A stretch of 35,656 nucleotides of DNA, taken from a virus. Positions 708-35,139 of the stretch are shown piece by piece (positions within the stretch are counted from its first letter, which is position 1; each line of letters opens with the position of its first letter). A model generated the notes under the pieces. It did no database searches and was not told the origin of the DNA. It saw only the letters and a program-made list of their open reading frames with translations. The stretch covers positions 1-35,656 of IMG/VR virus record IMGVR_UViG_3300032893_000191; one strand, written 5' to 3'. Made by a program: the position numbers and the translations under genes.

Positions 708-1175
708 ATGGGCGCACCGCGTGGAAACAAATTCGCAGAAGGACACGATGGAAGCGGCACCGGCCGTCCGGGTTCAGGCATAGAATTTATCCGTCAGCAA
801 TTCACCGAACGATTTTTGGATGATTTGCTCAATATGGAGTTGGACCCGGAAAAGATCGTTGAGCGGATCAAGGGCGGCAAATTCTTTTTGGGCGAATATA
901 TTTTGTATCGTGCTGTCGTGTTGGGGAAGGATGAGATTTTGATGGTGTTGATGAATAAGCTCTTTGGCGACAAACGTTCTTTCAGACCTCTTATCAATCA
1001 GCCACTTTCAGACGAAGAAAAGGCCGAGCTTGCCGAAGCTATGGATCGGGCGTTCGATGAATTCCCGCTCGTCGGATATAAACCAAGAATGCGCCAATTA
1101 ACCAATGGGGATGCAAACGGAAATACAGTTAGCCCTCAAAGAAGCCGCGCTCGCAAACCGAGAAAAAAGAATTGA
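708..1175 (+). CDS. Terminase small subunit (putative)
   Basis: I chose the ATG at 708 (MGAPRGNKFAEGHDG), because the MGAPxGNKFA opening is common in small terminase and phage DNA-binding proteins. A TTG start at 660 would add 16 residues running through a hairpin. The protein is 155 residues: a polar Gly-rich N-terminus, a helical core (about 25-110), then a very basic tail (RSRARKPRKKN). Small subunits recognise the packaging site and regulate the large-subunit motor. The call rests mostly on position directly before the large terminase and on size; no clear helix-turn-helix is visible. The 3' end overlaps the next gene by 71 nt if that gene starts at 1105. Confidence 0.5.
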   Translation: MGAPRGNKFAEGHDGSGTGRPGSGIEFIRQQFTERFLDDLLNMELDPEKIVERIKGGKFFLGEYILYRAVVLGKDEILMVLMNKLFGDKRSFRPLINQPLSDEEKAELAEAMDRAFDEFPLVGYKPRMRQLTNGDANGNTVSPQRSRARKPRKKN

Positions 1176-2811
1176 GATGATGCGGAATAGTTTGGGCCTG
1201 TTCATCGCCTACTATTTCGGCGCCGGTATGACGTACAAATTCCCCGGCTATGTCGGCGAGTTTTGGCAGGATGGCGAGAATTTGACCGACGGCTATTTGC
1301 GTGAGGCCGTGTGGATCGGCTTTGCTGAATCAACGAAAACGACCAACGCGAAGATGTTGGCCGCATGGTGGATCGCCACGGCGCAAAAGCATTACATCAA
1401 TTTTGACAGTTGGGATAAGAAGATCGCCGAGCAGTCATTGTTCGATCTCACGCTTTGGTTGCAGACCAACACCAAGCTCCGCAAAGATTTCGGTGAGCTT
1501 TATATCGAAGAACGCCATGACCGCGAAAAGAAGCAATTGAAGCGGTTGGGCGAATTTATTACGACGAACGACATCAAGGTTGAGGCATTTTCAATCGGCA
1601 TCAGTCCTCGCGGCCGTATTTACAACAACTATCGTCCCGATGCCTATATCATGGACGACTTGGAGAACAATAAGACCATTCGTTCATCGGCCCGCACAAA
1701 GCAGATCATAGACCACGTTGACGAGGTAAAGCGCGGCCTTGGCCCCACGGGGTGCATATTATATTGCGGCAACTATATCAGCGATGCGGGCGTGATGCGC
1801 CATATCAGGGATCGCGTTGCGGCCGATCCGAAGGGCGTGGTGCGCGATGTTCCGGTGGTTGATCGCATTACCGGCGAGATTGCGTGGAAAGACAAATATG
1901 TTCACACCGACGAAGAAGCGGCGCGGATCAACGCGGACCCCTCGCGGCGCCATCGTCCCGTCATATCGCTTGAAGACAAGAAGCGGTTTTTGAAAGAAAA
2001 GTATGAGCCGGAAATGATGAACGATCCGGCGGCGACCGGCGAGCTTGTCTTTGATCGCCCGACGATTGATCGGCTCTTGCGGAATGTGATGGCCGAAAAA
2101 CAGGATAACGGCGGCCTCAAAGTGTGGTACGCCTTCAATCCCTCGCACCGATACGCGATTGGCGCTGATACGGCAGAGGGCGAGGGTGGCGATGCCAATG
2201 CGTCGGTGATTATAGATTTCTCAACGACGCCGAACCGCGTGGTGGCGACGTATGCGAGCAACATGATCTCGGCTGATTTGTTCGGGCATGAGTTGAAGCG
2301 TCAGGGCTATCTCTACGGCGAATGTCTTGTTTGCCCGGAGGTGAACAATACCGGCTTTGCCACGCTCGCCGCATTGAAGAATGTTTATAAGCATCAAAAT
2401 ATTTATCGGCGCGAGGAACAGGATAAGGTTCAAAAGGTTCTCACGAAGAAATTGGGATGGCGCACGACCGAGGGCAACAAGTATTCGATCATGTCGGAGT
2501 TGAAGACGGCCGTGGAGAACGGGGAATTGATCGTGTTCGATAAGCGCTTGCTCGATGAGATGCGTGAATTCACGAATAACGACATGCGCGACGTTCAGGG
2601 CTTGGTAACGCGCCACTTTGATCTTTTGAAGGCATGTGCGCTCGCGTGGGCCATGAGGTCGTTAGCCAAAGTGACAGAGCAAAATACGACAGAGTACCGA
2701 CAGCCAAAATACGAAGGGCAGTCGGCGTTTGAGGGATCGGGCTTCGGTCAAAAAGGCGATAGTGAAGATTTATTCGATATGTTTGACGAAGACCCATTCC
2801 TTAAAACATGA
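1105..2811 (+). CDS. Terminase large subunit (packaging ATPase and nuclease)
   Basis: This is the motor that cuts concatemeric DNA and pumps it through the portal. The N-terminal ATPase has a divergent P-loop (GFAESTKTTNAK, about 72-83) and a Walker B acidic pair (YIMDDLEN, about 181-188). The C-terminal RNase-H-like nuclease shows its first Asp in IGADTAEGEGG (about D355), the second acidic motif in PEVNNTG (about E412) and a late Asp in HFDLLKA (about D506). The length of 568 residues fits the family. The start at 1105 gives a helical N-terminus that overlaps the small subunit by 71 nt; ATG codons at 1177 and 1180, just after the small-subunit stop, are alternatives. No Shine-Dalgarno sequence is visible. 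Confidence 0.9.
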   Translation: MGMQTEIQLALKEAALANREKRIEMMRNSLGLFIAYYFGAGMTYKFPGYVGEFWQDGENLTDGYLREAVWIGFAESTKTTNAKMLAAWWIATAQKHYINFDSWDKKIAEQSLFDLTLWLQTNTKLRKDFGELYIEERHDREKKQLKRLGEFITTNDIKVEAFSIGISPRGRIYNNYRPDAYIMDDLENNKTIRSSARTKQIIDHVDEVKRGLGPTGCILYCGNYISDAGVMRHIRDRVAADPKGVVRDVPVVDRITGEIAWKDKYVHTDEEAARINADPSRRHRPVISLEDKKRFLKEKYEPEMMNDPAATGELVFDRPTIDRLLRNVMAEKQDNGGLKVWYAFNPSHRYAIGADTAEGEGGDANASVIIDFSTTPNRVVATYASNMISADLFGHELKRQGYLYGECLVCPEVNNTGFATLAALKNVYKHQNIYRREEQDKVQKVLTKKLGWRTTEGNKYSIMSELKTAVENGELIVFDKRLLDEMREFTNNDMRDVQGLVTRHFDLLKACALAWAMRSLAKVTEQNTTEYRQPKYEGQSAFEGSGFGQKGDSEDLFDMFDEDPFLKT

Positions 2812-3121: not shown

Positions 3122-5158
3122 ATGGAAGCGACAAAACAACTCGCCAAAAAAGCATTACAAAAGGCATTGCTTCAACTCCACGATTCCACCGAATTGAAGC
3201 GTATTCGGTTCAAGAAGATCAACGAGGCGGAGATGATGTTGCTCGGAAAGGTGAAACAGAAATCGCGCACGTTATTCAACGTGCCGCTTCCCGTTTTGAA
3301 GGGCTTTTACGATAAGCTCACGGCGGACATGGATGATCCGTTGCAGGTGAAGGTTAAAAATAATCCCGGCAAGAACCTGATGGCGGTGAAGGGCATCAAT
3401 GCGATGTTCGAGATCGAACGGAAGTCGCTGTTGCCGACGGCCCGGTGGGACTATAAAGACCGGCAGGCCCGCAAATATGCGGTCGCTACGTCGCGGGGTA
3501 TCCATAAGATTTTCTCAACCGAGGGTCCGTACAAATCCATTTTGAAGACCGAGAACCCGTTTTTGTTCCATTGTCAGGGCGCCTTACCGACCGGCGCGGG
3601 CATTCTTGAAAACCATCTCTTTGCCGGTGTTGAGGGCGTGATGAAGACGAAGAAGGAATTGGTTGATGGCATCAAGAAGCTCGGCTACGACCGCGATGCG
3701 GTGAAACTTCTTGTTGAGCGCTCGAAGGACAAGGACTATATGGAAAAGGCGTCGCAGTTCAACGAGGAAATGTCGGCGCATTACAAGGCGCTCAACATTG
3801 ATCCTGAAAATAATAACTATGTGGGCGAAGTCACGTTCAATTTGTGCGAATGGGTTTTGACGATGAACGGCGAACGCTATTACCTTTTGTTCGATCCGTG
3901 GACGCAGACATGGATTCGTTTTTGCCCGCTCACCGAAATTCAGCCGAGCGGTTTGTATCCGTGGGTGTCGTACTCTACCGACGAGGACGATCAGAATTTT
4001 TGGGGAACCTCGATCTTGGCCGATATTCTCTATCCTATCGCTGATTCCATCGTGACGTTGTTCAACCAAGACCTTACGAACCGCGCCAAGCGGAATTTGA
4101 ACGGCCGGTACTACGACCGCGAGATGATTACGAATGTGGCGAAGCTCGATGAGGCGCAGTATCGCCCCGACACCTTGGTTCCGGTGAACACGTTTGGCGG
4201 TACCCGCAAGATCGCGGAGGGCGTCTATACGATCAGCACCCCGGAGATCACCGGCACCGTGGACCTTGTGAATTGGCTCACGGCATTTACGAGCGAGCAG
4301 GTTGGATCGGATCAGAATATTCCACAGCCGAAGAAGGGCGGCAGTTCGGCCACGAATAATATTATCTTCGCGCAGATTCAGCAGTTGGCGAAGCGCGTTG
4401 ATTATCGCAGTCATTCCTACACCGAAGCGTGGGGCGAACTCATGCTCCGCTACATTGACGGCCTCAAAGAGAATTTGAGCGAAGCCGAGGCGATTGATAT
4501 GCTCGGTCCCGAACTCGGTTATCGCTTCAAGGAAGAATTGAAGGAGATTGATGTTACGAAGGATGATATTCAAATCATCAGCACGAAGCAACAGAATCAG
4601 GAAGACGCGTTGCGGAAACAGCAAAAGATTTCATCGCTTCAAGAGATCGGCAAAGACCCGATCCTTTCCGCCCGGACCAATCCCGAATGGCGCTTGGAAC
4701 ATTTATTGTCCGACGTTGGCGGTTGGGAAAAGGAGGAAATCGAAGAAGCGATGGACTTGCGCGGCATGGGCGGCGAGCAGGCGCAGTTTGCTCACGCCGA
4801 TCACGCGATCAAGGAACTGTTGAAGGACAAAGAGCCGGAGCATTATTGGGCGGCCACCGTCACGTTCCAACGCCGCATTTTGGATTTCGAGCAACAGCAT
4901 CACGTTGAGCTTATGAAGAAGGGGCTTTCCATGAAATTCGTGAAATATGTGCGCGATCACTCGCAGACCGTTGCCGAGAACATGGCGCAGTTGGCGCTCC
5001 GCTTGAAAGCGGCGCAGGCACAGCAGGGTCAGGGCGGCGATCAGGGCCAAGGACAGGATCAAGGGCAGGGCGGAGGTCAGCCCGCTCGCGTCGGTCCCGG
5101 AGGTCCGCAGGCGCGGCCGCCGGTGAACGCCGCATTACCGAAAGTAAATATGCAATAA
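3122..5158 (+). CDS. Portal protein
   Basis: A 678-residue protein directly after the terminase genes, in the usual place and size range for a portal of a short-tailed phage. The portal forms the dodecameric ring at one capsid vertex through which DNA passes and on which the adaptor assembles. The middle section (about 240-330) has the wing/stem pattern seen in portals, with WVLTMNGERYYLLFDPWTQ and an aromatic-rich stretch before a helical stem (ILADILYPIADSIVTLFNQD). The long helical C-terminus ends in a Gln/Gly-rich tail (about 625-660) and Pro/Gly/Arg. It is followed by coupled small genes. No Shine-Dalgarno sequence precedes the ATG. The assignment is by context and overall architecture. 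Confidence 0.75.
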   Translation: MEATKQLAKKALQKALLQLHDSTELKRIRFKKINEAEMMLLGKVKQKSRTLFNVPLPVLKGFYDKLTADMDDPLQVKVKNNPGKNLMAVKGINAMFEIERKSLLPTARWDYKDRQARKYAVATSRGIHKIFSTEGPYKSILKTENPFLFHCQGALPTGAGILENHLFAGVEGVMKTKKELVDGIKKLGYDRDAVKLLVERSKDKDYMEKASQFNEEMSAHYKALNIDPENNNYVGEVTFNLCEWVLTMNGERYYLLFDPWTQTWIRFCPLTEIQPSGLYPWVSYSTDEDDQNFWGTSILADILYPIADSIVTLFNQDLTNRAKRNLNGRYYDREMITNVAKLDEAQYRPDTLVPVNTFGGTRKIAEGVYTISTPEITGTVDLVNWLTAFTSEQVGSDQNIPQPKKGGSSATNNIIFAQIQQLAKRVDYRSHSYTEAWGELMLRYIDGLKENLSEAEAIDMLGPELGYRFKEELKEIDVTKDDIQIISTKQQNQEDALRKQQKISSLQEIGKDPILSARTNPEWRLEHLLSDVGGWEKEEIEEAMDLRGMGGEQAQFAHADHAIKELLKDKEPEHYWAATVTFQRRILDFEQQHHVELMKKGLSMKFVKYVRDHSQTVAENMAQLALRLKAAQAQQGQGGDQGQGQDQGQGGGQPARVGPGGPQARPPVNAALPKVNMQ

Positions 5159-7641: not shown

Positions 7642-8976
7642 GTGGCTAACACTTACAGTTTGATGCAGGTGTGGGACACCAAGTACGAGTACACGCGGTA
7701 TAAACAGCCGGTCTTCCGTGCGTTCGCCGACGAAAAATATTCGCCGGGAGTGCGCGAAGGCGCGACGTTCAACCGTGAGTACGCCTCCGACTTGGTAGTG
7801 AACCAGATGGGCGCCAACGGCTCCTACTCGGTTCAGAGCTTCACGAACACTCTTGATACGGGTACCGTGAACATCAAGGAGGAAACGTCCATCCAAATCG
7901 TTGAGTGGCAGAAACTCCAAGACCACTTGCCGACGCAGTTGAAATACACCACGAAAGCCGCCAATGCTTTGTGGTTGCAGGTGGACGCGAACATTTTGGG
8001 CGCAATGGCCGTCAACGCGGCCTCCGTGATTGATGATTCCGTTATCAATCCGGGCGTCGGTACGGCGGGAAACGCCTTTACCGTCGGAGTGCAGAATATC
8101 ATGTCGGTTTTCACGGCCGGTATTCAGCAATTCCAACTCTTGAACGTGGTTTATGACCCGAACAAGACGCTTCCGAAGGATGTCAAATTGGAAACAATTT
8201 CCGACATGCTTGCGGCGGCTATCTCGCCACAGCTTTACAACTATCTCTTGCAGTTCATCGGCGGCAAGACCTCGTTGCTTGGTGATGAAATCAGCCGAAA
8301 CGGTCACGTTGGAAAGTTCATGGGTTACAACCTTTTCGTGTCAAACCAATTGATGTGGGAAGGTCAGCTCGGACTTTCGGTGAACCCGTCCAATGGTGAT
8401 GTCTTCACCCTCTTGAACGGTGTGACCGTGAAGGGTACTTCACAGGCCCTTACGTTCACCTTTGTCACCGGATCGCTCGGTACCACGCCCGGAAATATCT
8501 TGGTGCAGGGTACGGCCGCTCTTACGGCGGCGGCGGTTGCGGCGGCGTTGAATGATCCTTACACGACTTCGGCAAGCTATTACGCTTTCACGCAGTCGTC
8601 CCTCACGGTGTGGCAACAGAAGTTGCTTTACAACACCACGGCGGCGGTCGTTAGCTCGACCACGGTGGACATTCAGATCAACGGCGGCGGAGTTGTGCCG
8701 GTTGCGGCTACGCTCACTTCATCTAGCAATGGATGGGTCAGCAAACAGCAGAAACAGCACAACCTCTTTGCCACCTCCAAGTCGGTCAGCTTGCTCATGC
8801 AGGCGAAGCCGCACCTGTTCTTGAACCCGGTTTCAGGTCAGGTGGCCCGCGATCTCGTAACGTGGGATTTGTACGGCGTCAAGGTTTTCTACGACCAGTC
8901 GTTCCAAATCATTGACGTTCAGGTGGATTGCAGTTCGTTCGGTGCCGGTGGTACGCCTATCAACCAATTCAACTAA
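7642..8976 (+). CDS. Major capsid protein (HK97-fold type, with inserted domain)
   Basis: The 444-residue product follows the scaffold-like gene. N-terminal and C-terminal parts look like a P22-type coat protein: an extended N-arm (about 1-70), a long helix (YTTKAANALWLQVDANILG), the GYNLFVSNQL strand (about 229-238) and a C-terminal beta segment (LYGVKVFYDQSFQIIDVQVD). Residues about 255-370 are rich in Thr, Val, Ala and Gly and look like a separate Ig-like or beta-sandwich domain inserted in the coat fold, probably exposed on the surface. The start is GTG at 7642. No Shine-Dalgarno sequence precedes it; instead a small inverted repeat GTAAA/TTTAC lies just upstream (about 7622-7637). Confidence 0.8.
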   Translation: MANTYSLMQVWDTKYEYTRYKQPVFRAFADEKYSPGVREGATFNREYASDLVVNQMGANGSYSVQSFTNTLDTGTVNIKEETSIQIVEWQKLQDHLPTQLKYTTKAANALWLQVDANILGAMAVNAASVIDDSVINPGVGTAGNAFTVGVQNIMSVFTAGIQQFQLLNVVYDPNKTLPKDVKLETISDMLAAAISPQLYNYLLQFIGGKTSLLGDEISRNGHVGKFMGYNLFVSNQLMWEGQLGLSVNPSNGDVFTLLNGVTVKGTSQALTFTFVTGSLGTTPGNILVQGTAALTAAAVAAALNDPYTTSASYYAFTQSSLTVWQQKLLYNTTAAVVSSTTVDIQINGGGVVPVAATLTSSSNGWVSKQQKQHNLFATSKSVSLLMQAKPHLFLNPVSGQVARDLVTWDLYGVKVFYDQSFQIIDVQVDCSSFGAGGTPINQFN

Positions 8977-14262: not shown

Positions 14263-14496
14263 ATGAACACCGCAGACGTAATGACTTCAATCGTAGTGGC
14301 GCTGATAGCCATTGTTTGCGGTTTGGTGGCGTACATATTTACCCGAAACCAAAAAATAACCGATGCCCGGCTTTCGCACTCGGATCGGTTGCTCGAACAG
14401 ATGGTGGAAAGCAACCAAAAGCTCGGCGATCTCATCAAAGACCATGATTATCAGTTGCGTATGATTCGGGATAAGCTAAAAATAAAATTGCAATGA
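14263..14496 (+). CDS. Small single-span membrane protein with coiled coil
   Basis: A 77-residue protein with one hydrophobic helix (VALIAIVCGLVAYIFT, about 12-28) and a charged, helical cytoplasmic-type tail (LSHSDRLLEQMVESNQKLGD). It has its own promoter in leaderless geometry and overlaps the peptidase gene by 4 nt. Size and topology fit a holin-like, spanin-like or membrane-tether role. Pairing with a papain-like peptidase suggests a joint function at the envelope. No sequence motif fixes the identity. Confidence 0.55.
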   Translation: MNTADVMTSIVVALIAIVCGLVAYIFTRNQKITDARLSHSDRLLEQMVESNQKLGDLIKDHDYQLRMIRDKLKIKLQ

Positions 14497-15311
14497 ACAA
14501 GATTCACGACGAACGAAAATTTAATGTGAAGATTCCGGTGTGGGGCCATTCGCGCCATCACCTTTCTTACCATAAAAGTTTTCCGACCTATGGGGCTACT
14601 GCGATTCCGGCGGAGCTTTTGTTCGTGAACGCTATCTTGAATCAGGGCAGTACCCCGGCTTGCACGGCATACTCCGCGTGTGCAACCCGTGGTTCGATGA
14701 AGAATAAAAATTATGATCCCAACTCATACTGGCAGGAGGAATGCCAATATGACGGCGCACCGATCACGCAAAACGGCACCAGTCCCGATACTTGCATGGA
14801 AGTCGGCGTTGAGATCGGCTGGGTTCCCGTGGGACAGCCGTTGCCGACGGATCGCGCTTCGGCTACGTTTTCCATCACGCCGAACAACGGCATGGACCTC
14901 TTTGATTCCGTGCGGACAGCCATCGTTCAGCAAAATAGTCCGGTTCAGGGATTCGTCATTTGGTACGGCGATTGGGATTCCACGAATCAGGGAATCATCA
15001 CGCCGACGTTCCATAGCGTCTTGGGCGGACACGCCATTAAGATTGCCGGATTCACTACGATCAATGGCATTCCTTATATCGTCATTCAAAATTCATGGGG
15101 ACCGGATATGGGCCTCAACGGACTGTTCTATTTTGACCGCGCCACCTTCAATAAGGCATTCGGTGTCGGCTACGTCCGTCTTTGGTCGGACAGCTCGAAC
15201 GCGAATGTTCAGAAATTGGGATTGCTCGCCGCTCTCATGCAAAATCTCATCAACCTTCAAGCCGCATTACGTCGGGCGGTAAGGTCCATAGCAAACATTT
15301 TCAACAAATAA
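14493..15311 (+). CDS. Papain-like (C1A) cysteine peptidase
   Basis: All catalytic elements of family C1A are visible in order: oxyanion Gln and nucleophile Cys in NQGSTPACTAYSA (Q51, C57), the His in GGHAIKIAGF (H180), and the Asn in QNSWGPDMGLNGLFYFD (N200). The 272-residue length fits a mature peptidase without a long pro-region or signal peptide. The C-terminal 45 residues form an added helical tail. The gene sits between fibre and adaptor genes and is coupled to a small membrane protein. Possible jobs are maturation of virion proteins or cleavage of host surface proteins during entry. Substrate unknown. Confidence 0.85.
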   Translation: MNKIHDERKFNVKIPVWGHSRHHLSYHKSFPTYGATAIPAELLFVNAILNQGSTPACTAYSACATRGSMKNKNYDPNSYWQEECQYDGAPITQNGTSPDTCMEVGVEIGWVPVGQPLPTDRASATFSITPNNGMDLFDSVRTAIVQQNSPVQGFVIWYGDWDSTNQGIITPTFHSVLGGHAIKIAGFTTINGIPYIVIQNSWGPDMGLNGLFYFDRATFNKAFGVGYVRLWSDSSNANVQKLGLLAALMQNLINLQAALRRAVRSIANIFNK

Positions 15312-16073: not shown

Positions 16074-18305
16074 ATGGCAAAAACTTCTTCAAACGGAATG
16101 TTGCCGGATGTGACGGTGGATCAGTTCTTTGGCCTGAACAACGCCGCAAAGAATTTGGATGATTTGAAGCGTGGGGAAAGCCCCGACGCCTTGAATTGGA
16201 TTACGAGCGCGGCTCCGGTGCCGGACAAGAAGGATGTATATTTCGGCGACAATATTCAGTTGCGGCGCGGATCAATCCCTATCGCCACGTCGCTCCTTTC
16301 AAGTGGGTTCGTGTCGGGATTGGGCGTAGGTGTTCAGCAAAATGGAACGCAGGTGCCGATATTCTCCATCGGGCGCCATCTTTTCTATTACAATGCGACC
16401 TCGCAATCCATCGTTGAGATCGGATCGAGCGTATTGCCCGCGACGGCCGCGAACGATGATGTGGCGATCATCCCCTATCAAAACCTCGCCGATTATGCGG
16501 TCTTTGTTTCATCGCCGCATAGTTCGTTCTATAAAATTTTGACCGCCAATCCTAGCGACATCATTGATTTGCAATCGAATCAGTATCGGGGATATTTCAC
16601 GATGAATTTGGGACGCGCCTATCTTTGGAACATCAGCCCGGTTTTGGGTCGCCCGAACAGCACCGATCTTTTCATTTCATGGGGCGATGGCGACACCGCA
16701 GGGGTTTCACCGCCGTTTTATGCAAAGACCGGCATTCAGGGAAAGGCGACCGATGGCACCTCGACGCAGTATACGGATACGCTTGTCATTGATACGAGCT
16801 TCGAGAATGTGTGGGGCGTTCAGATCGCGGCCTTTGTCGGTACGCCGATCGGAATTTCCGGGATCACGAAAGCGAACCCGGCCGTCATTACCGTCAGCGA
16901 TTCGACGGGATTCAACGTGGGCGACGTGGTGATGATCCAAGGCGTGAGCGGCATGACGCAGATCAACAATCAGATTGATATTATAAGCTCTTTGACGCCG
17001 ACGACGATCACGCTCACCTATACCGATTCAAGCGCATTCAGCAATTATTCTTCGGGCGGTTCCATCGGCCTTGTTGAACAGCTTGTGGACGATCAAAATG
17101 GCAATCTCGTTTCGACGACCACCGGGAACAATGCCGGATCGGTGAATTATGCGACCGGCGCCATCGTTGCGAATTTCCAAGTCGCTCCGGTGAACAGCTA
17201 TCACCTTTCCTATGCGTACTACGAGGATTATTCAAGCAACGAAGGACCCTTGCAGTTCACCCCGGAAACCCCGTCAAGCGCGATTCAGAGTATAAAAATG
17301 CCGCAACCGGGCGTCGGTCCGTTTATGAATGCGTTTTTTCTCTCCGGCCTTGTCTATTGCTTCCACCAAAACGGCGTGTATCAGCTTCAACTTACCAACA
17401 ACTCCACGTTTTATGACGCGACCGGAGGAACCGTGGCACCGAACCAACAGATTTTCGCGCAGAATGCGGGCATCCCCTATTGGCGGGCCGGATACGAAAC
17501 GGCTGACGGCATTTTGTATCTCGATATTTACAATTTCGCCTATCCCACGCTTCGCATCTTGGAGCTTCAATACTCATCGTCTTCGGTGAATCCGCTTGTG
17601 ATCCCGCGCACGATCTCGGACGCGCTCGATCTCTCGGCATACACGTTCAGCAAAGGTGTCGTGCAGGAATGGGGCGATTATTACCTCTTGGCCGGCATGG
17701 GATCATCGAACGGCGTACCGGACGCCGCGAATGACAATATATTCGTGATGAATAAAAAGACGGGGTATTGGGACCGGACCGATTACCGGGCTTCGTGCAT
17801 GGGAACCTATCTCGGCGCGTTGCTTGCGGGCGATTCCATCTCGCCAAATCTCCAAATCTTATTCTCCGGCTTCGATGATAACGGCTTCAACATCAACAAT
17901 TATTGGAAATCGGGACCGGATCGGCTTGGCCGCGCCGGGATTAAGACCATAGATAAGATTGTTGTCAAGGGACTGATTCAGCCCTCGCAGGTGCTTCAAA
18001 TTTACGTCGCCTACGATCTCGGAACGTTCGTTTTGCTCGATACGATCTATGGAAACGGCCCCTATGTGAATATCGGAACGCCCATCGAGGTCGGCGGCCC
18101 GACGGTCGGTTCAAACATCGTCGGGGGCGGCGGGACGGTCTATGCCTACTCTTTTGAAAAGGAAATCGAGATCGGGTCCGATCTTTTTGACCGAATTCAG
18201 GTCATGTTCGAGGGCGCTTCGGTCGGATTTTTGCAGATTGACGAGTACACTTGGAAGCAAATTCACTACCACGGAAGCACCATTCTTTCGCCTTTGGTGG
18301 AATAA
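16074..18305 (+). CDS. Tail nozzle / hub protein with inserted beta domain
   Basis: A 743-residue, mostly beta protein. The opening (FFGLNNAAKNLDDLKRGESP) with DALNW resembles the start of nozzle or hub proteins of podoviruses (T7 gp12, P22 gp10 type), which open with a GLNN...ESPDA...N pattern and form a propeller-like ring below the adaptor. Residues about 260-330 contain ISGITKANPAVITVSDSTGF and GDVVMIQGVSGMTQINN, a small phage beta domain often matched to the E1 FCCH-like profile. Its presence inside the nozzle suggests an added surface module. No membrane or signal segment. Confidence 0.7.
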   Translation: MAKTSSNGMLPDVTVDQFFGLNNAAKNLDDLKRGESPDALNWITSAAPVPDKKDVYFGDNIQLRRGSIPIATSLLSSGFVSGLGVGVQQNGTQVPIFSIGRHLFYYNATSQSIVEIGSSVLPATAANDDVAIIPYQNLADYAVFVSSPHSSFYKILTANPSDIIDLQSNQYRGYFTMNLGRAYLWNISPVLGRPNSTDLFISWGDGDTAGVSPPFYAKTGIQGKATDGTSTQYTDTLVIDTSFENVWGVQIAAFVGTPIGISGITKANPAVITVSDSTGFNVGDVVMIQGVSGMTQINNQIDIISSLTPTTITLTYTDSSAFSNYSSGGSIGLVEQLVDDQNGNLVSTTTGNNAGSVNYATGAIVANFQVAPVNSYHLSYAYYEDYSSNEGPLQFTPETPSSAIQSIKMPQPGVGPFMNAFFLSGLVYCFHQNGVYQLQLTNNSTFYDATGGTVAPNQQIFAQNAGIPYWRAGYETADGILYLDIYNFAYPTLRILELQYSSSSVNPLVIPRTISDALDLSAYTFSKGVVQEWGDYYLLAGMGSSNGVPDAANDNIFVMNKKTGYWDRTDYRASCMGTYLGALLAGDSISPNLQILFSGFDDNGFNINNYWKSGPDRLGRAGIKTIDKIVVKGLIQPSQVLQIYVAYDLGTFVLLDTIYGNGPYVNIGTPIEVGGPTVGSNIVGGGGTVYAYSFEKEIEIGSDLFDRIQVMFEGASVGFLQIDEYTWKQIHYHGSTILSPLVE

Positions 18306-24335: not shown

Positions 24336-24387
24336 CCAATGCCCCAAAAACCCTTATAAAACCTACATTTTTAAGCTATTGACAATC

Positions 24388-25788
24388 ATGGAGATTTTTG
24401 ACCAAAACAAAACTGAAAAAAAAGAGGAAGCGATCACCAAATTTATCATTGCGACGCAGGATTGTAGCGGCTATGGGTTCGCCAAGATGCTTCAAGATCA
24501 GGTTGATGGGCGCGGCGCATCGCGGCGCGATAAGGGTTCGGTTGAAGACGTGATTATGGCGATCTTGCCGAAAGAAAAAGAGGAAGAAGAAGAAAAATTA
24601 TATCGTGTCGGCGATGATGTGGTTCAAAAAATGCCGCTCGAAAAATTGTTCAGCCGCCGCAAAGATTATAAGGACTATCTTTGGGTATTTGATATGAACT
24701 TCGGATCAGAGATGGCCGACAAGCTCCGCGAGGAAGGATTTTATGTCATTGGAGGGCATGAGCTTACTGACAAGCTCGAACACGACCGCGAGTACGGCCT
24801 GTCGCTCGTCAAAAAAGCGGGCCTCGCCGAGCCGCCCTCGAAAAAGTTTTCCGACATTGCGAGCGGTCTTGAATTCTTGGATGCGAATGAAATGATCGCG
24901 TATGTTTTTAAGCCGGATGAACCCGACGACCACGCGTGGGTTACGACCACCCCGGATAACGACAATGATATTCAGGCGAATCGAGAATTGTACCGGTTCC
25001 TCGCCGCGCAGGGCGAAGGGAAGGGCGACTACATTCTTCAAGAGCGCAAGAAGGGCGTTGAACTCAACGTGGAATTGTGGCTGTACCAAGGAAAGCCGTT
25101 TTTCGCGCATGGCAATTTTGAATGCAAACGAAAGGATAACGGCGATCACGGCCGCATGATCGGATGCGCCCAAGACATCGAGTTCGTGATCCCGGTGAAT
25201 GCGAAGATATTGAAGGCAACGCTTTGGAAGCTCATTGAACAGCCGGAATTTAAGGATTACACGGGCTTTATTGATATGAACCTCATTGTCGCTGACGATC
25301 AACCGTGGTTCCTTGAATTTTGCGGCCGCTTTGGATATAACAGCCATCCCAATTTATTCCTCACCGTAGCGATCTCGCCGATTGGGAAAATACTTTCGGA
25401 TTTTGTGATGGGGAACGTGGAAAATTTTAGACGCCATTTCCGCGCAGGATTTGGCGCTTCGATCACCTGTTGGATTGATAAGCCGGTTGAGGGATTGCCG
25501 ATCATCTTTGACGACGATCAGGATATTGAAAGCCGCTTCTTCCACTTTGATACTTATAAGGAAGATGATGAGTATTATCTTGCGGGCTATGCCAATGAGG
25601 TCGGGATCATTTGCGCTCACGATTACGATTTGAAGTCGGCCGCCGATGCCGTGTTGCAAAAGTTCGATCACATTCATTATCCCGGACGGACCGCCCGTAC
25701 CGATCTCAACCGCGAAGATTATTTGTCGAATCCGCAAGAGCGATTGATCGCGGCAAATGAAATGAAACTTTTTGAACCCGAAGAATGA
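24388..25788 (+). CDS. ATP-grasp ligase, PurD-like
   Basis: I prefer ATG 24388 (466 residues) over an upstream TTG at 24379. The layout is that of phosphoribosylamine-glycine ligase: a Rossmann-like N-terminal part with FGSEMADKLREEGFYVIGGH, then the ATP-grasp core (DREYGLSLVKKAGL; FKPDEPDD; ILQERKKGVELNVELWLYQG; RMIGCAQDIEF). The metal-binding strand is GFIDMNLIVADDQPWFLEFC with GRFGYNSHPN, matching the conserved EFNCRFGDPE of PurD. ATP-grasp enzymes join a carboxylate to an amine using ATP. Here the substrate could be phosphoribosylamine plus glycine, or a peptide or amine unrelated to purines. It lies between virion and lysis genes, which is unusual. It overlaps the next gene by 4 nt. Confidence 0.75.
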   Translation: MEIFDQNKTEKKEEAITKFIIATQDCSGYGFAKMLQDQVDGRGASRRDKGSVEDVIMAILPKEKEEEEEKLYRVGDDVVQKMPLEKLFSRRKDYKDYLWVFDMNFGSEMADKLREEGFYVIGGHELTDKLEHDREYGLSLVKKAGLAEPPSKKFSDIASGLEFLDANEMIAYVFKPDEPDDHAWVTTTPDNDNDIQANRELYRFLAAQGEGKGDYILQERKKGVELNVELWLYQGKPFFAHGNFECKRKDNGDHGRMIGCAQDIEFVIPVNAKILKATLWKLIEQPEFKDYTGFIDMNLIVADDQPWFLEFCGRFGYNSHPNLFLTVAISPIGKILSDFVMGNVENFRRHFRAGFGASITCWIDKPVEGLPIIFDDDQDIESRFFHFDTYKEDDEYYLAGYANEVGIICAHDYDLKSAADAVLQKFDHIHYPGRTARTDLNREDYLSNPQERLIAANEMKLFEPEE

Positions 25789-29180: not shown

Positions 29181-29399
29181 ATGTGCAAGAATGATCCGGG
29201 GGTTGAGAATCGGCGCAAGATCGGGAAGTGCCATGTGTGTAAAGGGGAAAATCTTTCAATCGGATTTTGCAACATTTGTTGCCATTGGTTTTGTAAAAAG
29301 TGCAATAAGAGAGTTTTTGCGCGAGCGATGGAAGCAGTAAAAGAAATGGTCGGGGGGGTCGTCCCCGGATGTTGCGGACCGGTATTTGTCCATGTCTAA
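29181..29399 (+). CDS. Zinc-binding protein with multiple Cys pairs
   Basis: A 72-residue protein with CHVCKGENLSIGFCNICCHW and CKKCNK, giving at least six Cys and a His in a compact block. The pattern suggests two interleaved zinc sites (RING-like or treble-clef). The remaining sequence is basic and then hydrophobic (VGGVVPGCCGPVFVHV). It is transcribed from its own leaderless-type promoter and overlaps the following gene by 8 nt. It likely acts as a small adaptor or nucleic-acid-binding factor; function unknown. Confidence 0.6.
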   Translation: MCKNDPGVENRRKIGKCHVCKGENLSIGFCNICCHWFCKKCNKRVFARAMEAVKEMVGGVVPGCCGPVFVHV

Positions 29400-30072
29400 C
29401 ACTTATTCATTACGATATATTTGCGGCAATTGTGAAGTTGAGGCCGAGCGGGAATTCCAAAAAGGGCAATTGGCGCCTACGGCCGTTGAGTGTGAAAATT
29501 GCGGCGGAGAATGTACAAAGGCCACGCGATCCAACGCGGGCCAACGAGATTTCAAGCCCATGCCGTCGCAACAGATTCAGAATAATAACGCCGACGATGA
29601 GGAAGATGAATTTGATGCTTCCTTGAAAGCGGAAGATGTGATTGACGATGGCATTTCCGCAGAGGAAAAAGCCGAGCGCGTGAAGGAATCTTTGACCGAA
29701 GTGCATGATTCGTCGTCGTTAAAACCGGAAAATACCGATCCCACGAAGCGTTTTATTTTGGTGGGGTCAAACATTCTCAATAAGCGCAAAGAGGTGGTCG
29801 GCTATGTTCCCGCATCCGAGCAGAGCTTTGAGGAAGTGAAGGCGCAGTTTCGAGGCAAAAAAGAGCTTGAAGAATTTATGAGGCGGATCAAGATTGCTCC
29901 GCAAACCCTCGTTGAGCTTTATGGCCTCGATCCTGACGAGTGCTATTTCCTCGAAATGCTTGATCGGAAATGGGAGCATAAGCGCCGCATGTTGCCGGAG
30001 CTTCCTATGCTTCCCGCCTTATCCGATGGGAATTACGAGGGCTATAAAAAATCATTGGGGATTGTTGCTTAA
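29392..30072 (+). CDS. Zinc-ribbon protein with acidic linker
   Basis: Starting at ATG 29392, 226 residues. An N-terminal zinc ribbon (YICGNCEVE ... VECENCGGEC, about 8-38) is followed by an acidic disordered linker (about 60-105). A C-terminal mixed domain (about 118-226) begins RFILVGSNILNKRKEVVGYV and ends with a helix-rich part. No catalytic motif is obvious. It sits just before the IF-1 gene with no gap; both lie in one operon, so it might take part in transcription or translation control. That is inference from position. Confidence 0.55.
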   Translation: MSNTYSLRYICGNCEVEAEREFQKGQLAPTAVECENCGGECTKATRSNAGQRDFKPMPSQQIQNNNADDEEDEFDASLKAEDVIDDGISAEEKAERVKESLTEVHDSSSLKPENTDPTKRFILVGSNILNKRKEVVGYVPASEQSFEEVKAQFRGKKELEEFMRRIKIAPQTLVELYGLDPDECYFLEMLDRKWEHKRRMLPELPMLPALSDGNYEGYKKSLGIVA

Positions 30073-30282
30073 ATGGCAAAGGATATAAAAAATATGAAGC
30101 GAGGCGTCGTGACCGAAGCATTGCCAAATGCTCAATTCAGGGTTGATGTTGATGGACGGATTGTCATTTGCTATTTGGCGGGTCGCATGATGAAAGCGAA
30201 TATCCGAGTTTCGATAGGTGACAAAGTTGATGTCATTTTGCCTCCGGGTAGTGACCGGGGAAGGATTGATTGGCGATACTAA
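30073..30282 (+). CDS. infA: Translation initiation factor IF-1 homologue
   Basis: The 69-residue protein matches bacterial IF-1 along its whole length: start MAKDIKNMKRGVVTEALPN, then FRVDVDGRIVICYLAGRMMK, NIRVSIGDKVDVILPPG and DRGRIDWRY. The OB-fold landmarks GxVxExLPNAxFRV, GxMxKxxIR, GDKVxV and GRIxxR are all present. IF-1 binds the ribosomal A site on the 30S subunit and helps start-site selection. It follows the zinc-ribbon gene with no gap and precedes the methyltransferase. A phage copy is unusual. It may bias host ribosomes toward phage mRNAs, which here appear to lack Shine-Dalgarno sequences and often leaders. Confidence 0.9.
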   Translation: MAKDIKNMKRGVVTEALPNAQFRVDVDGRIVICYLAGRMMKANIRVSIGDKVDVILPPGSDRGRIDWRY

Positions 30283-30283
30283 A

Positions 30284-31186
30284 ATGAAATGGATTCATCT
30301 CGATCTATTTTCAGGAATAGGCGGAGCTTCTTACGCGGCCGATCAGGTTTGGGGAAAAGAAAAATTTGAGCATATTTTTTGCGACAATGAACCCTTTGCA
30401 CAACAAGTCCTCAAAAAACATTGGCCCACGGCGCAAATCTACGGTGACATCAGGACTCTTACCAACTCCGAGAGCAGGGAAGCAGACGCCTCAAAGTCGG
30501 TCGGACTTCACGCCGAATCTCGCCTACGAAGTGGAAACGGCATTGCTTCCGACGCCGGAAGCGAAGAACAGCGAGGGGTATCAGGTGGCTCACGGGAAAA
30601 AATATCCGAGATTAGGCAATGTTATCTCCTCACCGGCGGATTCCCGTGTCAGCCATTTTCCCAAGCCGGACGAAGAAAAGGAACGGAAGACAACCGCTAT
30701 CTCTGGCCTGAAATGTTTAGGGTTATTCGAGAGTTCAAACCAAAATGGATCGTCGGTGAAAATGTTGCGGGACTTGTTACTTGGAGCGACGGTTTGGTAC
30801 TCCGACAAGTGTTCGCTGATTTGGAAAGCGCAGGATACGAAGTCGAAGCATTTGTTATACCGGCTGTTGCCCTCAACGCGCCGCACCGGAGGGATCGCGT
30901 TTGGATTATTGCCAACGCCGGCGGCGCGCGACGGAAAAGGAAGAGATGGCAATGGAATGGACGGGTTCAAAAGGCGCCAGGGAGGACCATCTTTACCGGA
31001 ATGGATAGCAAAAAAATATGGAAAAGAAGCCCGCCTGAACCCGCAATTTTCAGAATGGCTGATGGGTTATATCCCGGGATGGACAGAGTTAAACGGCTCA
31101 AAGCTATCGGCAACGCGTGGGTTCCGCAAGTCGCAATCGAAATCTTTAAAGCAATAAAAAAAGTAGATGAAAATATCATTAAATAA
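30284..31186 (+). CDS. C5-cytosine DNA methyltransferase
   Basis: The start at ATG 30284 gives 300 residues with all main motifs: I DLFSGIGG (7-14), IV GGFPCQPFSQAG (118-129, catalytic C122), VI ENV (159-161), VIII HRRDRVWI (201-208) and X AIGNAWVPQVA (274-284). The enzyme transfers a methyl group from S-adenosylmethionine to carbon 5 of cytosine. Between GDIRTL and motif IV is an abnormal insert of about 55 polar residues (60-115), and the target-recognition region is short. Over nearly the whole length a second recognisable protein is encoded in another frame. It probably protects phage DNA from host restriction. No partner restriction enzyme is seen. Confidence 0.9.
   Translation: MKWIHLDLFSGIGGASYAADQVWGKEKFEHIFCDNEPFAQQVLKKHWPTAQIYGDIRTLTNSESREADASKSVGLHAESRLRSGNGIASDAGSEEQRGVSGGSREKISEIRQCYLLTGGFPCQPFSQAGRRKGTEDNRYLWPEMFRVIREFKPKWIVGENVAGLVTWSDGLVLRQVFADLESAGYEVEAFVIPAVALNAPHRRDRVWIIANAGGARRKRKRWQWNGRVQKAPGRTIFTGMDSKKIWKRSPPEPAIFRMADGLYPGMDRVKRLKAIGNAWVPQVAIEIFKAIKKVDENIIK
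30387..31157 (+). CDS. Overlapping-frame protein with LLPTP repeats
   Basis: Lies wholly inside the methyltransferase gene in the +1 frame. I suggest ATG 30387 (256 residues); TTG 30366 is an alternative. It shows features of a phage-associated protein family with LPTP repeats: LLPTPRAGKQTP, LLPTPEAKNSEGY, LLPTPAARDGKG, then LNPQFSEWLMGYIPGWTEL and a KSQSKSLKQ end. The middle (SVKMLRDLLLGATVWYSDKC, LIWKAQ, LLYRLLPSTRRTGG) matches the same family as I know it. In other genomes such sequence is found as, or fused to, a methyltransferase-related protein. The long open frame with coherent motifs argues against a random shadow. Role unknown. Confidence 0.55.
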   Translation: MNPLHNKSSKNIGPRRKSTVTSGLLPTPRAGKQTPQSRSDFTPNLAYEVETALLPTPEAKNSEGYQVAHGKKYPRLGNVISSPADSRVSHFPKPDEEKERKTTAISGLKCLGLFESSNQNGSSVKMLRDLLLGATVWYSDKCSLIWKAQDTKSKHLLYRLLPSTRRTGGIAFGLLPTPAARDGKGRDGNGMDGFKRRQGGPSLPEWIAKKYGKEARLNPQFSEWLMGYIPGWTELNGSKLSATRGFRKSQSKSLKQ

Positions 31187-31269: not shown

Positions 31270-31737
31270 ATGCAAGAAATAAAAGCACCCCATTCTCTAT
31301 ATGGTTCTCAATTTATGACGAAGATTTTTCTTGCGGGCAGTATTGAGATGGGTGCCGCAGAAAATTGGCAAGAACGAGTAAAGCGATTATTGGCTGATCG
31401 TGAACATATCATGCTTTTCAATCCGCGCCGAGATGATTGGGATAGCTCATGGGTTCAAAGCATCGAGAATGATAAATTTGTAGAGCAGGTCACTTGGGAA
31501 CTCGAAGCGATGGAACGGGCAGATATTATTTTGATGTACTTTGATCCGCCGACAAAATCACCGATTTCTCTTTTAGAGTTGGGATTGTGGGCGAATAACC
31601 GTGGCAATCATACAAGCAAATTGCGCGTAGTATGCCCCAAAGGATTTTGGCGGAAAGGCAACGTTGATATTGTTTGCGCTCGCTATAATGTCCCTCAATT
31701 CAAAACAATAGAAGATGCCATAATTGACATATCATAA
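31270..31737 (+). CDS. Nucleoside 2-deoxyribosyltransferase-like protein
   Basis: The core starts KIFLAGSIEMGAAENWQERV, the IFLAGxI opening of the nucleoside deoxyribosyltransferase / DUF4406-type fold. It continues with LFNPRRDDWDSSW, WELEAMERADIILMYFDP and SPISLLELGLWA, in which the last Glu is the usual catalytic position. I give the start as ATG 31270 (155 residues); ATG 31315 (140 residues) would place the core right at the N-terminus. Such enzymes exchange bases on deoxynucleosides or hydrolyse nucleotides. In a phage early region it could supply or reshape the nucleotide pool, possibly linked to the neighbouring cytosine methyltransferase. Confidence 0.75.
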   Translation: MQEIKAPHSLYGSQFMTKIFLAGSIEMGAAENWQERVKRLLADREHIMLFNPRRDDWDSSWVQSIENDKFVEQVTWELEAMERADIILMYFDPPTKSPISLLELGLWANNRGNHTSKLRVVCPKGFWRKGNVDIVCARYNVPQFKTIEDAIIDIS

Positions 31738-31738
31738 A

Positions 31739-31747
31739 TGTTATAAT
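31739..31747 (+). promoter_or_regulatory. Extended -10 promoter (TGTTATAAT), leaderless geometry
   Basis: TG at 31739-31740 and a perfect TATAAT at 31742-31747, exactly 6 nt before ATG 31754. A TTGACA occurs at 31724-31729, but only 12 nt upstream, too close for a standard -35. Confidence 0.65.
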
Positions 31748-31753
31748 TATATT

Positions 31754-32365
31754 ATGCCAAAAGGAATTTTTGTTCGTAAACCTCTATCGGAAGAACACAA
31801 GCGCAATATCAGCGTGGCTTTGATGGGCCGTATTGTTTCGCCCGAAACGCGAGAGAAAATGCGCCACAATCCGCAGAATTTCAAAAAGGGGCATACCGTA
31901 TCTCTTGAAACTCGAATGAAAATGCGGAATAGCCCGACTGCTTTCAAGCCGGGACATGAGGTTACGGATGAAATGCGGGCGAAACTTCGCAAAGCAAGTT
32001 TGGGAGTGAAGCCAACGGTTGAGGCGTTGGCTAAAAGGAGTTTGGCAATGCGAGGTGAAAATAATCCGAGTTGGAAAGGGGGCGTAACTGAATTGCGTAA
32101 TGCGATAAGAAATTGCTTCAAGTACCGGCTATGGCGTTTTGATATTTTCAAGCGAGATAATTTTACTTGCGTATGGTGCGGCGCAAGGGGAGTTTATTTG
32201 GAGGCAGATCATAACCCCATTCCTTTCTATAAAATCCTTATTGAATATAAAATCAACACGATTGATGATGCTTTGGCTTGTGAGAAACTTTGGGATATTA
32301 GCAATGGTCGAACGCTTTGCAAACCTTGTCATAACACCACGAAAAATGGCCGCGCAAAAAACTAA
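31754..32365 (+). CDS. HNH homing endonuclease with NUMOD-type repeats
   Basis: The start at ATG 31754 gives 203 residues. The N-terminal half has repeated short helices of NUMOD3 type: LSEEHKRNISVALMG, VSPETREKMRHN, VSLETRMKMRNS and VTDEMRAKLRKASLG, followed by GENNPSWKGG. The C-terminal half is an HNH nuclease with zinc ligands: CVWCGARG, the ADH of LEADHNPIPF, and NGRTLCKPCHNTTK. Such genes are free-standing homing endonucleases that nick a recognition site and copy themselves into related genomes. It has its own leaderless promoter, which supports independent insertion. Composition looks a little more A/T-rich than the flanks. Confidence 0.9.
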   Translation: MPKGIFVRKPLSEEHKRNISVALMGRIVSPETREKMRHNPQNFKKGHTVSLETRMKMRNSPTAFKPGHEVTDEMRAKLRKASLGVKPTVEALAKRSLAMRGENNPSWKGGVTELRNAIRNCFKYRLWRFDIFKRDNFTCVWCGARGVYLEADHNPIPFYKILIEYKINTIDDALACEKLWDISNGRTLCKPCHNTTKNGRAKN

Positions 32366-33241: not shown

Positions 33242-34099
33242 ATGTCAAAAAAAATCAAAAAAACTAAAAAACCGAAGAAGACAGTTAGCCGGAAGCGAAA
33301 GGTGGTTGCACCGGCTCAACCCGGAGCTATGGCGATCATTCCTTATTCGGAGATCGCAAAGCCCGAAACGTATCAGGGCAAATACACGCTCATTCCGACG
33401 CTTTTCAATGAGCGTCAGATAATGAGCATCATTGCTCCGACGCCGAAGAATATCATCAAACAGCGTCCGGGCAAGGGCGGAGGAAAATGGGATTATGTGC
33501 CGGGGTGGTGGTTTAAGAAAAAGGCGAATTTCGTCTTTGGGTTCTCTCACGACTTCGATATTTTGGGCGAGCGCGTTGATGGCGATTTTATCACCGTCAA
33601 AGGCAAGCTCACGGTTCGCAACCCGAAGACCGGAGCCGTGATTGCATCGAAATCAGATTATGGAAGTGCGGCGATCAAGTATTGCAAGGGATGTAAGCAT
33701 ACGCCGGAAAATTACCTTGATATTGGAAACGATTTCAAGGCGGCGCAGACGGATTGTTTCAAGCGGTGCATGGTTCAATTCGGATTTGCAATGGACGTTT
33801 ATGGGACCGGAGAGATGCACGACAACGATATTCCGGTTCAGGGCGATCCGAATGACGAGCCGCAGGGACCGACTGATGCTCATGGCAAGGTTGTTGAAAC
33901 CGCAGGGATTCAGCCGGAAACCGAGCAGATTATGAAGATTTGCAAGGACTTGGGAGCGACAAGCGGTCCGCAAATCTTCGCGGGAATCAAAAAAGTAACG
34001 GGCTATGACTTGAAGTCGTGGGCGCTCACCCCGACGCAAGCCAAAGACATCTTGTCGAAGATGTTGGCCTACAAACATCAAAAGCAAAATGGCAAATAA
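33242..34099 (+). CDS. Rad52-like single-strand annealing protein
   Basis: 285 residues. After a very basic N-terminus (about 1-22) comes a domain with the features of Rad52/Rad22-type annealing proteins: PGWWFKKKANFVFGFSHDF, a beta section (FITVKGKLTVRNPKTGAVIA), then DIGNDFKAAQTDCFKRCMVQ with FGFAMDVYG. The last is close to the conserved DIGNaxKAAxTDAlKrc...G...YG signature. A CKGC pair lies in the middle, which may be a zinc site. The C-terminal 80 residues are a flexible linker and a small helical tail. It anneals complementary single strands in phage recombination. The PD-(D/E)XK nuclease downstream is the natural exonuclease partner. Confidence 0.8.
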   Translation: MSKKIKKTKKPKKTVSRKRKVVAPAQPGAMAIIPYSEIAKPETYQGKYTLIPTLFNERQIMSIIAPTPKNIIKQRPGKGGGKWDYVPGWWFKKKANFVFGFSHDFDILGERVDGDFITVKGKLTVRNPKTGAVIASKSDYGSAAIKYCKGCKHTPENYLDIGNDFKAAQTDCFKRCMVQFGFAMDVYGTGEMHDNDIPVQGDPNDEPQGPTDAHGKVVETAGIQPETEQIMKICKDLGATSGPQIFAGIKKVTGYDLKSWALTPTQAKDILSKMLAYKHQKQNGK

Positions 34100-34346
34100 G
34101 ACGAAGGTAAAATCCGAGAATAAAATAGCGGGTAAGATCGAAGTGGAAGTGCAGGAGTTAGATCAGAAGGCGATGTTTATGACGCAACATTTTGGAAACG
34201 GCTCATTTGGAGATACAAAGTTTGATGCGTCGTTTACGCTTCCGGCGATGGGATTGATAGTTTCGGTGAACGGGAAGCGCTATAAGATTTCCAGTCAAAA
34301 TCTTATTGAAGAAATAATCAAACTACACGAAAAAGATGGCAAGTAA
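34089..34346 (+). CDS. Hypothetical protein between recombination genes
   Basis: An 85-residue protein overlapping both neighbours (11 nt at each end). It has a basic N-terminus, a beta-rich middle (FDASFTLPAMGLIVSVNG) and a C-terminal helix (NLIEEIIKLHEKDGK). No motif is recognised. Its location between annealing protein and nuclease suggests a role in the same recombination system. Confidence 0.55.
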   Translation: MANKTKVKSENKIAGKIEVEVQELDQKAMFMTQHFGNGSFGDTKFDASFTLPAMGLIVSVNGKRYKISSQNLIEEIIKLHEKDGK

Positions 34347-35139
34347 AAAATCGGCTGTTGTTGCCCCGAAGGAAACAGGGATCATAACGACCCATCCGTA
34401 TAAAGATGTTTCCATGACTTTCGATGTTAGCCGACATCTCTTTTCCGTCGGAGGTCCGTTCATCCAAAAGAAGTTCAAGACCCTCGATCACCGGCCAAAG
34501 TCGGTGACGGGGTTCACGAAGGCGGTTGATAAGTCGTTCGCCCTTATGTCGTGGCAAGAACGGATCACCAAGGAGCATCTTTTGATGAAGCTGAAATCAA
34601 AAGTTGTTATCACCGAAGACATTGTGATCGAAGCGACCGGCTTGCATCGCGTTAGGAAGCAGGAAGCGGCCACAGCCGGTACGATAGCGCACAAGTGGGC
34701 CGAGGATTTTGCCAAGGGGTTGAATCCGCCCATGCCAGAGGATGAGAAGGTTAAAAACGCCGTCCTCGCATTCTTGAAATGGCTTGATGAGGAAAAGTTT
34801 AAGATCAAAATTGGCGAAAAGCATTTGTACTCCAAGAAGTACGATTACGCCGGTATCGCCGATGCCGTGGCGACCCGAAAGGGCAAAACGGCGCTCATTG
34901 ACTACAAAACTTCATCGGGTATTTACGACGAAATGATGTTCCAAGTTTCGGCGTATGCCAACGCGCTCGATGAAATGGGGATCAAGGTTGATGAGCGGTG
35001 GATCGTCCGCTTTGATAAAGAAAGCGGCGACTTCTTCCCGGTCCCATGCACCAACCAAAAGGCCGATTTCGATGCCTTCCTTGGTTGCCGGGCCATCGTA
35101 TTGCGTCAGGAAGAAATCAAAAAGGAAAAAGGATTCTGA
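34336..35139 (+). CDS. PD-(D/E)XK exonuclease (RecB/Cas4-like)
   Basis: 267 residues. The nuclease core is visible in order: GTIAHKWAEDFAKG (His/Glu motif), LYSKKYDYAGIADAVA (Asp motif), TALIDYKTSSGIYDEMM (D-x-K motif), and QVSAYANALDEMG (Q-x-x-x-Y motif). These are hallmarks of RecB-family nucleases. An N-terminal 90-residue part may aid DNA binding. With a Rad52-like protein two genes upstream it forms a phage recombination pair: the nuclease resects DNA ends and the annealing protein pairs the exposed strands. The start overlaps the previous gene by 11 nt. Confidence 0.85.
   Translation: MASKKSAVVAPKETGIITTHPYKDVSMTFDVSRHLFSVGGPFIQKKFKTLDHRPKSVTGFTKAVDKSFALMSWQERITKEHLLMKLKSKVVITEDIVIEATGLHRVRKQEAATAGTIAHKWAEDFAKGLNPPMPEDEKVKNAVLAFLKWLDEEKFKIKIGEKHLYSKKYDYAGIADAVATRKGKTALIDYKTSSGIYDEMMFQVSAYANALDEMGIKVDERWIVRFDKESGDFFPVPCTNQKADFDAFLGCRAIVLRQEEIKKEKGF

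Follow-up and report, generated by a model that had tools for sequence, protein, structure and literature searches.

Initiation factors encoded by phages are known from very large genomes. Both IF1 and IF3 have been described in huge phages, where the authors proposed that they intercept host translation, redirect it or augment it (Al-Shayeb et al., 2020; PMC7162821), and the IF-1 of the Lak megaphages was published in 2019 (PMC6784885). Core initiation factors have so far been reported from phage genomes of hundreds of kilobases, and no mention of them was found in the papers searched on phages of Patescibacteria. Here, we describe an IF-1 gene on a contig of approximately 36 kb. The whole stretch analysed (hereafter, the window) is a single IMG/VR virus record of 35,656 bases; it contains one copy of the gene, and the same contig encodes a terminase, a capsid protein and an exonuclease, as expected of a phage genome.

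The gene begins with ATG, ends with TAA and encodes a protein of 69 residues (MAKDIKNMKRGVVTEALPNAQFRVDVDGRIVICYLAGRMMKANIRVSIGDKVDVILPPGSDRGRIDWRY). The Pfam family PF01176 (IF-1/eIF-1A) covers residues 10–68, nearly the full length of the domain (E 1.2e-12; 47.7 bits, cut-off 30.2), and comparison with PDB sequences returned IF-1 chains with E values down to 1.8e-11. The AlphaFold model (pLDDT 89.2) predicts an OB fold, with five strands in a barrel and the short IF-1 helix between strands 3 and 4; the best PDB matches of this model were all IF-1 (9fco_I, TM 0.87; 1hr0_W, TM 0.84), with a TM range of 0.84–0.87 against 30S-bound structures. The full-length IF-1 homologue announced in the earlier note is thus borne out. 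On the NCBIfam infA equivalog model TIGR00008 the protein scored 49.5 bits, below the cut-off of 61.15, which marks it as a divergent IF-1; judged by its sequence it is an IF-1 homologue, without certification of equivalence by this model. Its PHROG match, phrog_30201, is annotated as “unknown function,” so annotation cut-offs and PHROGs overlook phage IF-1 genes of this kind. The features of the locus are listed in Table 1.

Table 1. Coordinates of the phage infA gene, its altered codons, its neighbours and the genes used for host assignment.
Feature	Position in the window	Strand	Basis
Terminase large subunit	1105..2811	+	Relatives in Patescibacteria provirus and kin phages; used for host assignment
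Portal-type protein, assigned from position and kinship	3122..5158	+	Relative in G557 provirus, 24% identity, E 3e-29
Major capsid protein	7642..8976	+	phrog_267; relatives in two genomes of the Patescibacteria order
Operon gene preceding IF-1, 228 aa, without family match	29386..30072	+	Pfam/PHROG searches
Stop-start junction TAA-ATG, upstream gene to IF-1, no Shine-Dalgarno motif	30070..30075	+	Read from sequence
Phage infA, IF-1, 69 aa	30073..30282	+	Pfam, PDB, NCBIfam and fold matches
Met40 codon; Arg in 134/134 other IF-1s (Arg41 in T. thermophilus/C. difficile, contacts A1492/A1493)	30190..30192	+	Alignment; PMC10913371
Gly59-Ser60 codons replacing conserved Tyr59-Asp60, beta4-beta5 loop	30247..30252	+	Alignment; Tyr60 (C. 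difficile) on S12 face, PMC10913371
Downstream operon gene, C5-cytosine DNA methyltransferase	30284..31186	+	Pfam PF00145, E 1.1e-38
Rad52-like protein and PD-(D/E)XK exonuclease, replication/recombination genes	33242..35139	+ (strand of IF-1)	Profile matches

The host was assigned through related proviruses. A provirus in the Patescibacteria genome G557 encodes relatives of the terminase (31% identity, E 6e-40), of the portal-type protein (Table 1), of the capsid protein (E 2e-11) and of the tail-region proteins at window positions 16074 (E 2e-28) and 18339 (E 2e-9). A terminase profile matched 38 of the 297 genomes searched in the implicated order of Patescibacteria; among the matches is the phage contig G668:C6 (35,877 bases), which has identical 139-base ends. 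The portal profile, built from two near rows, gave no match in 380 Patescibacteria genomes; given the portal relative in G557, either this query was too narrow or G557 lies outside the genomes drawn. The relatives of terminase, portal, capsid and tail proteins in a Patescibacteria provirus indicate that the host is very probably a Patescibacterium, an assignment at the level of phylum and order through distant related proviruses. The G557 provirus lies directly downstream of the infA-rpsM-rpsK-rpsD-rpoA-rplQ-rplM-rpsI cluster; with this placement (G557:C2, positions ~183300–204000; loci L157 and L158), capture of infA through imprecise excision is imaginable.

The phylogeny of the protein against host candidates and other viral copies, a check proposed in the earlier note, placed it within a Patescibacteria set. 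The first tree comprised 96 IF-1 proteins, and the second included four phage copies of the Patescibacteria type (window, L005, L242 and L260); both rest on 72 columns with long branches, including that of the window, and their Patescibacteria rows were picked by similarity to the window copy. In the first tree, the smallest well-supported set with the window IF-1 held 38 Patescibacteria copies, L005 and the window (97/80), the IF-1s of the T4-like, Lak and Sinorhizobium phages being placed elsewhere; in the second, it held 35 Patescibacteria and the four phage copies (95/83). Since the window IF-1 groups with those of Patescibacteria and apart from the huge-phage and T4-like copies, it looks host-captured: as far as the tree can tell, a Patescibacteria host supplied infA, which has diverged since. 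Neither a single clade of the window and the other phage IF-1s (AU test, p 0.188) nor one uniting just these four phage copies of Patescibacteria type (p 0.61) was rejected, so that one capture or several are both allowed. One of these four copies (L242, 9898–10104, minus strand; G215:C2) is the second IF-1 of a Patescibacteria genome and lies away from rpsM, on a phage-like contig of 35 kb. All four scored below the infA cut-off (43.7–55.6 bits), the host copies passed it in six of six cases (64.9–79.7), and the other phage copies scanned passed as well (91.5–110.6).

Dozens of IMG/VR contigs, many of which are large, also carry IF-1. The IF-1 of the Acinetobacter “phage” MD-2021a was rejected as a phage copy because its neighbours (leuB, truA) are those of a bacterial chromosome. 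Record CAKLQH020000005 (L168), filed as an Acinetobacter phage, carries infA amid chromosomal truA, leuB and leuD and looks bacterial; OR844994 (L169), filed as a Staphylococcus phage, is an unverified 153-kb record.

The 30S face of IF-1 includes K39, R41, R46, R64 and R66 in the numbering of C. difficile and T. thermophilus, which minus one gives that of the mature E. coli protein; R41 and R46 touch A1492/A1493, and H35, Y60, R64 and R66 face S12 (PMC10913371). In E. coli IF1, Arg69 is required for the interaction with 30S (PMC4611024). The window protein keeps basic residues at Arg38 (E. coli Lys38), Arg45 (Arg45), Arg62 (Lys63), Arg64 (Arg65) and Arg68 (Arg69), and its net charge is +5. 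Four of the five E. coli contacts K38, R40, R45, R65 and R69 are therefore kept (K38 as Arg), the fifth, R40, being Met. The comparison set comprised 134 IF-1s, namely 52 from other cellular sources, 58 from Patescibacteria and 24 from other phage records, in which Tyr59 was present in 52/52, 53/58 and 24/24, respectively; it is absent from all four Patescibacteria-type phage copies. The changes at Arg40 and Tyr59 suggest, from the alignment, an altered affinity or fidelity, and the loss of Arg40 could mean weak or absent binding to 30S. In the literature collection searched, no paper mentions IF1 together with R40D.

We propose, with a probability of roughly 0.6, that infA of this phage is an accessory gene captured from Patescibacteria, whose product folds as IF-1, binds to the 30S A site of host ribosomes and supplements or displaces the host IF-1. 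According to this scenario, a small tailed phage infecting a Patescibacterium would have taken up the host gene, and the copy would then have diverged. The kept residues and the predicted fold suggest that the phage IF-1 may sit on the host 30S A site during infection; by supplementing or displacing the host factor it would change the amount or the stringency of initiation, a change in stringency being suggested by Arg40Met and the loss of Tyr59.

The same protein might instead act as an RNA chaperone or antiterminator, an OB-fold protein that melts RNA hairpins in the manner of CspA or E. coli IF1 and aids phage transcription or recombination, with ribosome binding secondary. Indeed, both RNA-chaperone and antitermination activity have been reported for E. 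coli IF1, which also complements a double mutant of cspB and cspC and stimulates the MS2 replicase in vitro (PMC3017892; PMC8956599); moreover, the window gene is flanked by a methylase gene and recombination genes to one side and by genes of unknown function to the other, and the protein retains its positive charge while the decoding-centre contact Arg40 is gone. However, most of the other residues of the 30S face are kept, and a pure chaperone would not need them, which makes this role rather doubtful. An inhibitory role is also conceivable, in which the altered IF-1 fills the 30S A site as a dominant negative and blocks or slows host initiation. The mostly kept binding residues, combined with the changed Arg40 and with a Tyr59 missing in 4/4 Patescibacteria-type phage copies, would fit such a host shut-off; nevertheless, the phage mRNAs resemble those of the host in lacking Shine-Dalgarno (SD) motifs and would be inhibited as well unless expression were brief, and we consider shut-off unlikely.

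The search for infA in related phages, likewise suggested earlier, did not reveal it in any of the 45 viral records whose terminase or portal is related to that of the window, many of which are fragments, and L008, which alone is closely related (78% in the terminase, 87% in the capsid protein), stops short of the infA region; the three other Patescibacteria-type phage IF-1s were found elsewhere. Thus, infA is an accessory gene among related phages. Because the 45 related records without IF-1 show the same SD-less style, IF-1 is dispensable for such phages. No synteny around IF-1 was found among phages, in a comparison whose ORF set had IF-1 itself removed by an overlap filter. The GC3 of the window gene is 0.44, below that of the structural genes, and its neighbours are likewise low, which is consistent with a variable region. 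A captured infA that has no selected role and is heading for loss could also be accessory, low in GC3 and devoid of an invariant residue. Such a passenger is nonetheless quite improbable, given that the full-length ORF is intact, most of the 30S face is kept and several separate lineages of Patescibacteria-type phages carry IF-1.

SD motifs were counted as GGAG, GAGG or AGGA at positions −18 to −5 of starts and compared with internal ATGs. In the window, they precede 3–8% of genes vs. 10–11% of internal ATGs (8% vs. 10% with GGAG/GAGG/AGGA), which agrees with the earlier statement that the phage genes mostly lack SD sequences. The Patescibacteria genomes of the implicated order have them in 0–8% of genes, which does not exceed the frequency at internal ATGs, and kin phages lacking IF-1 in 6.5% (n = 447), as opposed to 80% in the Ruminococcus control. 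Read from their sequences, the phage mRNAs are written in the SD-less style of the host. The further suggestion that several genes are leaderless did not hold: stop-start coupling (−20 to +6 nt) is seen at 22 of the window's 40 gene junctions, so most of those starts lie inside transcripts, and no leaderless start is evident.

Another start-site feature, T at position −1 of ATG, reaches 57–75% in most host genomes of the order (loci L276–L294) vs. 24–37% internally. Kin phages are mostly host-like (54%), and values are low in the window phage (25%), in its relative L008 (11%, n = 9) and in the G215 phage (22%), the host of the latter itself having just 31%. A link between IF-1 and a weak T at −1 is not claimed, since the IF-1-less kin L204 and L212 are also low, the IF-1 carriers L005 and L260 retain the signal, and the G215 host value runs counter as well.

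These counts bear on the function suggested in the earlier note, a viral IF-1 that redirects host initiation toward SD-less or leaderless phage mRNAs. The window genes do lack SD motifs, and IF1 stimulates leaderless and 70S-scanning initiation in vitro (reviewed in PMC9031893), which leaves room for a milder form of the idea. However, SD motifs are equally lacking in the hosts and in the kin phages without IF-1. As a host-wide property common to phages without the gene, SD absence cannot be the reason for carrying IF-1 and was rejected as its explanation; with no leaderless starts evident and many starts coupled, redirection becomes very improbable.

The supplementing or displacing factor proposed above would most likely benefit the phage through better initiation at its many stop-start junctions in a host without SD pairing. 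IF1 has been described as non-essential yet strongly stimulatory for 70S-scanning (coupled) initiation (PMC9031893); with an SD-less host and coupled phage operons, an extra or less stringent IF-1 could plausibly lift phage output. A more far-reaching and less probable version may be offered tentatively: small phages of Patescibacteria might share a distinct, phage-specialised IF-1, in which the beta4-beta5 loop is altered and, in the window phage, a decoding-centre contact as well, and which would reprogram start stringency on SD-independent ribosomes so that phage operons are preferred.

The gene starts at the first base after the stop of the 228-aa gene and ends 1 nt before the methyltransferase gene. 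The operon membership asserted in the earlier note therefore stands, and the label “early” is plausible from the neighbours (Rad52-like protein, exonuclease). For neither the 228-aa protein nor the exonuclease was a relative found in viral contigs. In the Patescibacteria loci inspected, chromosomal infA adjoins rpsM, usually with rpsK and rpsD, with one exception at a contig end; none of these three genes lies near the window copy, and the cellular IF-1s found are at most 58% identical to it. A piece of host contig wrongly joined to the phage, for which no support was found beyond IF-1 normally being a host gene, is practically excluded by the 0- and 1-nt junctions, the lack of ribosomal neighbours and the lack of a near-identical chromosomal copy, and the gene can be taken as phage-encoded, as first claimed.

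Several other genes of the window deserve mention. The main frame of the methyltransferase gene matches phrog_363 (E 3e-64) and is overlapped in another frame by a 263-aa ORF (30366–31157, plus strand) matching phrog_1008 (E 4e-31), an apparent dual coding or a methyltransferase split in two frames. A NUMOD3 protein (31724–32365, plus strand) resembles free-standing homing endonucleases and is matched by four ORFs of the phage contig G668:C6. The tail-region genes include a papain-family cysteine protease (14493–15311, plus strand; PF00112, E 1e-10), and a 469-aa protein (24379–25788, plus strand), whose ATP-grasp match is weak and below the cut-off (22.4 bits), is encoded between structural and lysis-type genes.

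Compared with the described systems, the window IF-1 shares with the huge-phage and Lak proteins its protein family and its phage encoding. It differs from them in size, with genomes above 200 kb in the huge phages and a contig of approximately 36 kb here, and in its divergent, Patescibacteria-type sequence, whereas the Lak protein passes the infA model (104 bits), retains both Arg40 and Tyr59 and has a different place in the tree. In the T4-like IMG/VR phages L002, L004 and L006, infA also belongs to a phage operon, beside clamp-loader genes, and in L002 it overlaps the preceding gene by one base; these copies, however, form a separate tree group (100/97), SD motifs precede 39% of genes in those phages, more than in the window, and the L002 protein scores 100.7 bits on the infA model vs. 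49.5. Chromosomal infA of Patescibacteria (TIGR00008) has the common fold and most of the 30S contacts, at no more than 58% identity; the window copy departs from it in lying outside the rpsM-rpsK-rpsD-rpoA cluster, in Arg40 replaced by Met, in the missing Tyr59 and in its score below the cut-off. Further counterparts are the IF-1s of L242, L005 and L260/L261, which likewise group with Patescibacteria, lack Tyr59 and stay below the cut-off, but have a basic residue at position 40 instead of Met; apart from IF-1, L005 has no protein matching those of the window. The hosts implicated here, tiny bacteria of a parasitic type, have very reduced genomes and no SD use, and a phage IF-1 may tune the initiation of host ribosomes on messages during infection. 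If functional, the protein would be a natural variant at a position that is constant in all the other IF-1s sampled, and would allow the role of IF-1 to be probed where SD pairing marks no start sites. Thus, phage IF-1 itself is known, and what is new here is a Patescibacterium-phage contig of about 36 kb with a Patescibacteria-type IF-1, the Tyr59 loss that it shares with its counterparts, and the change of Arg40.
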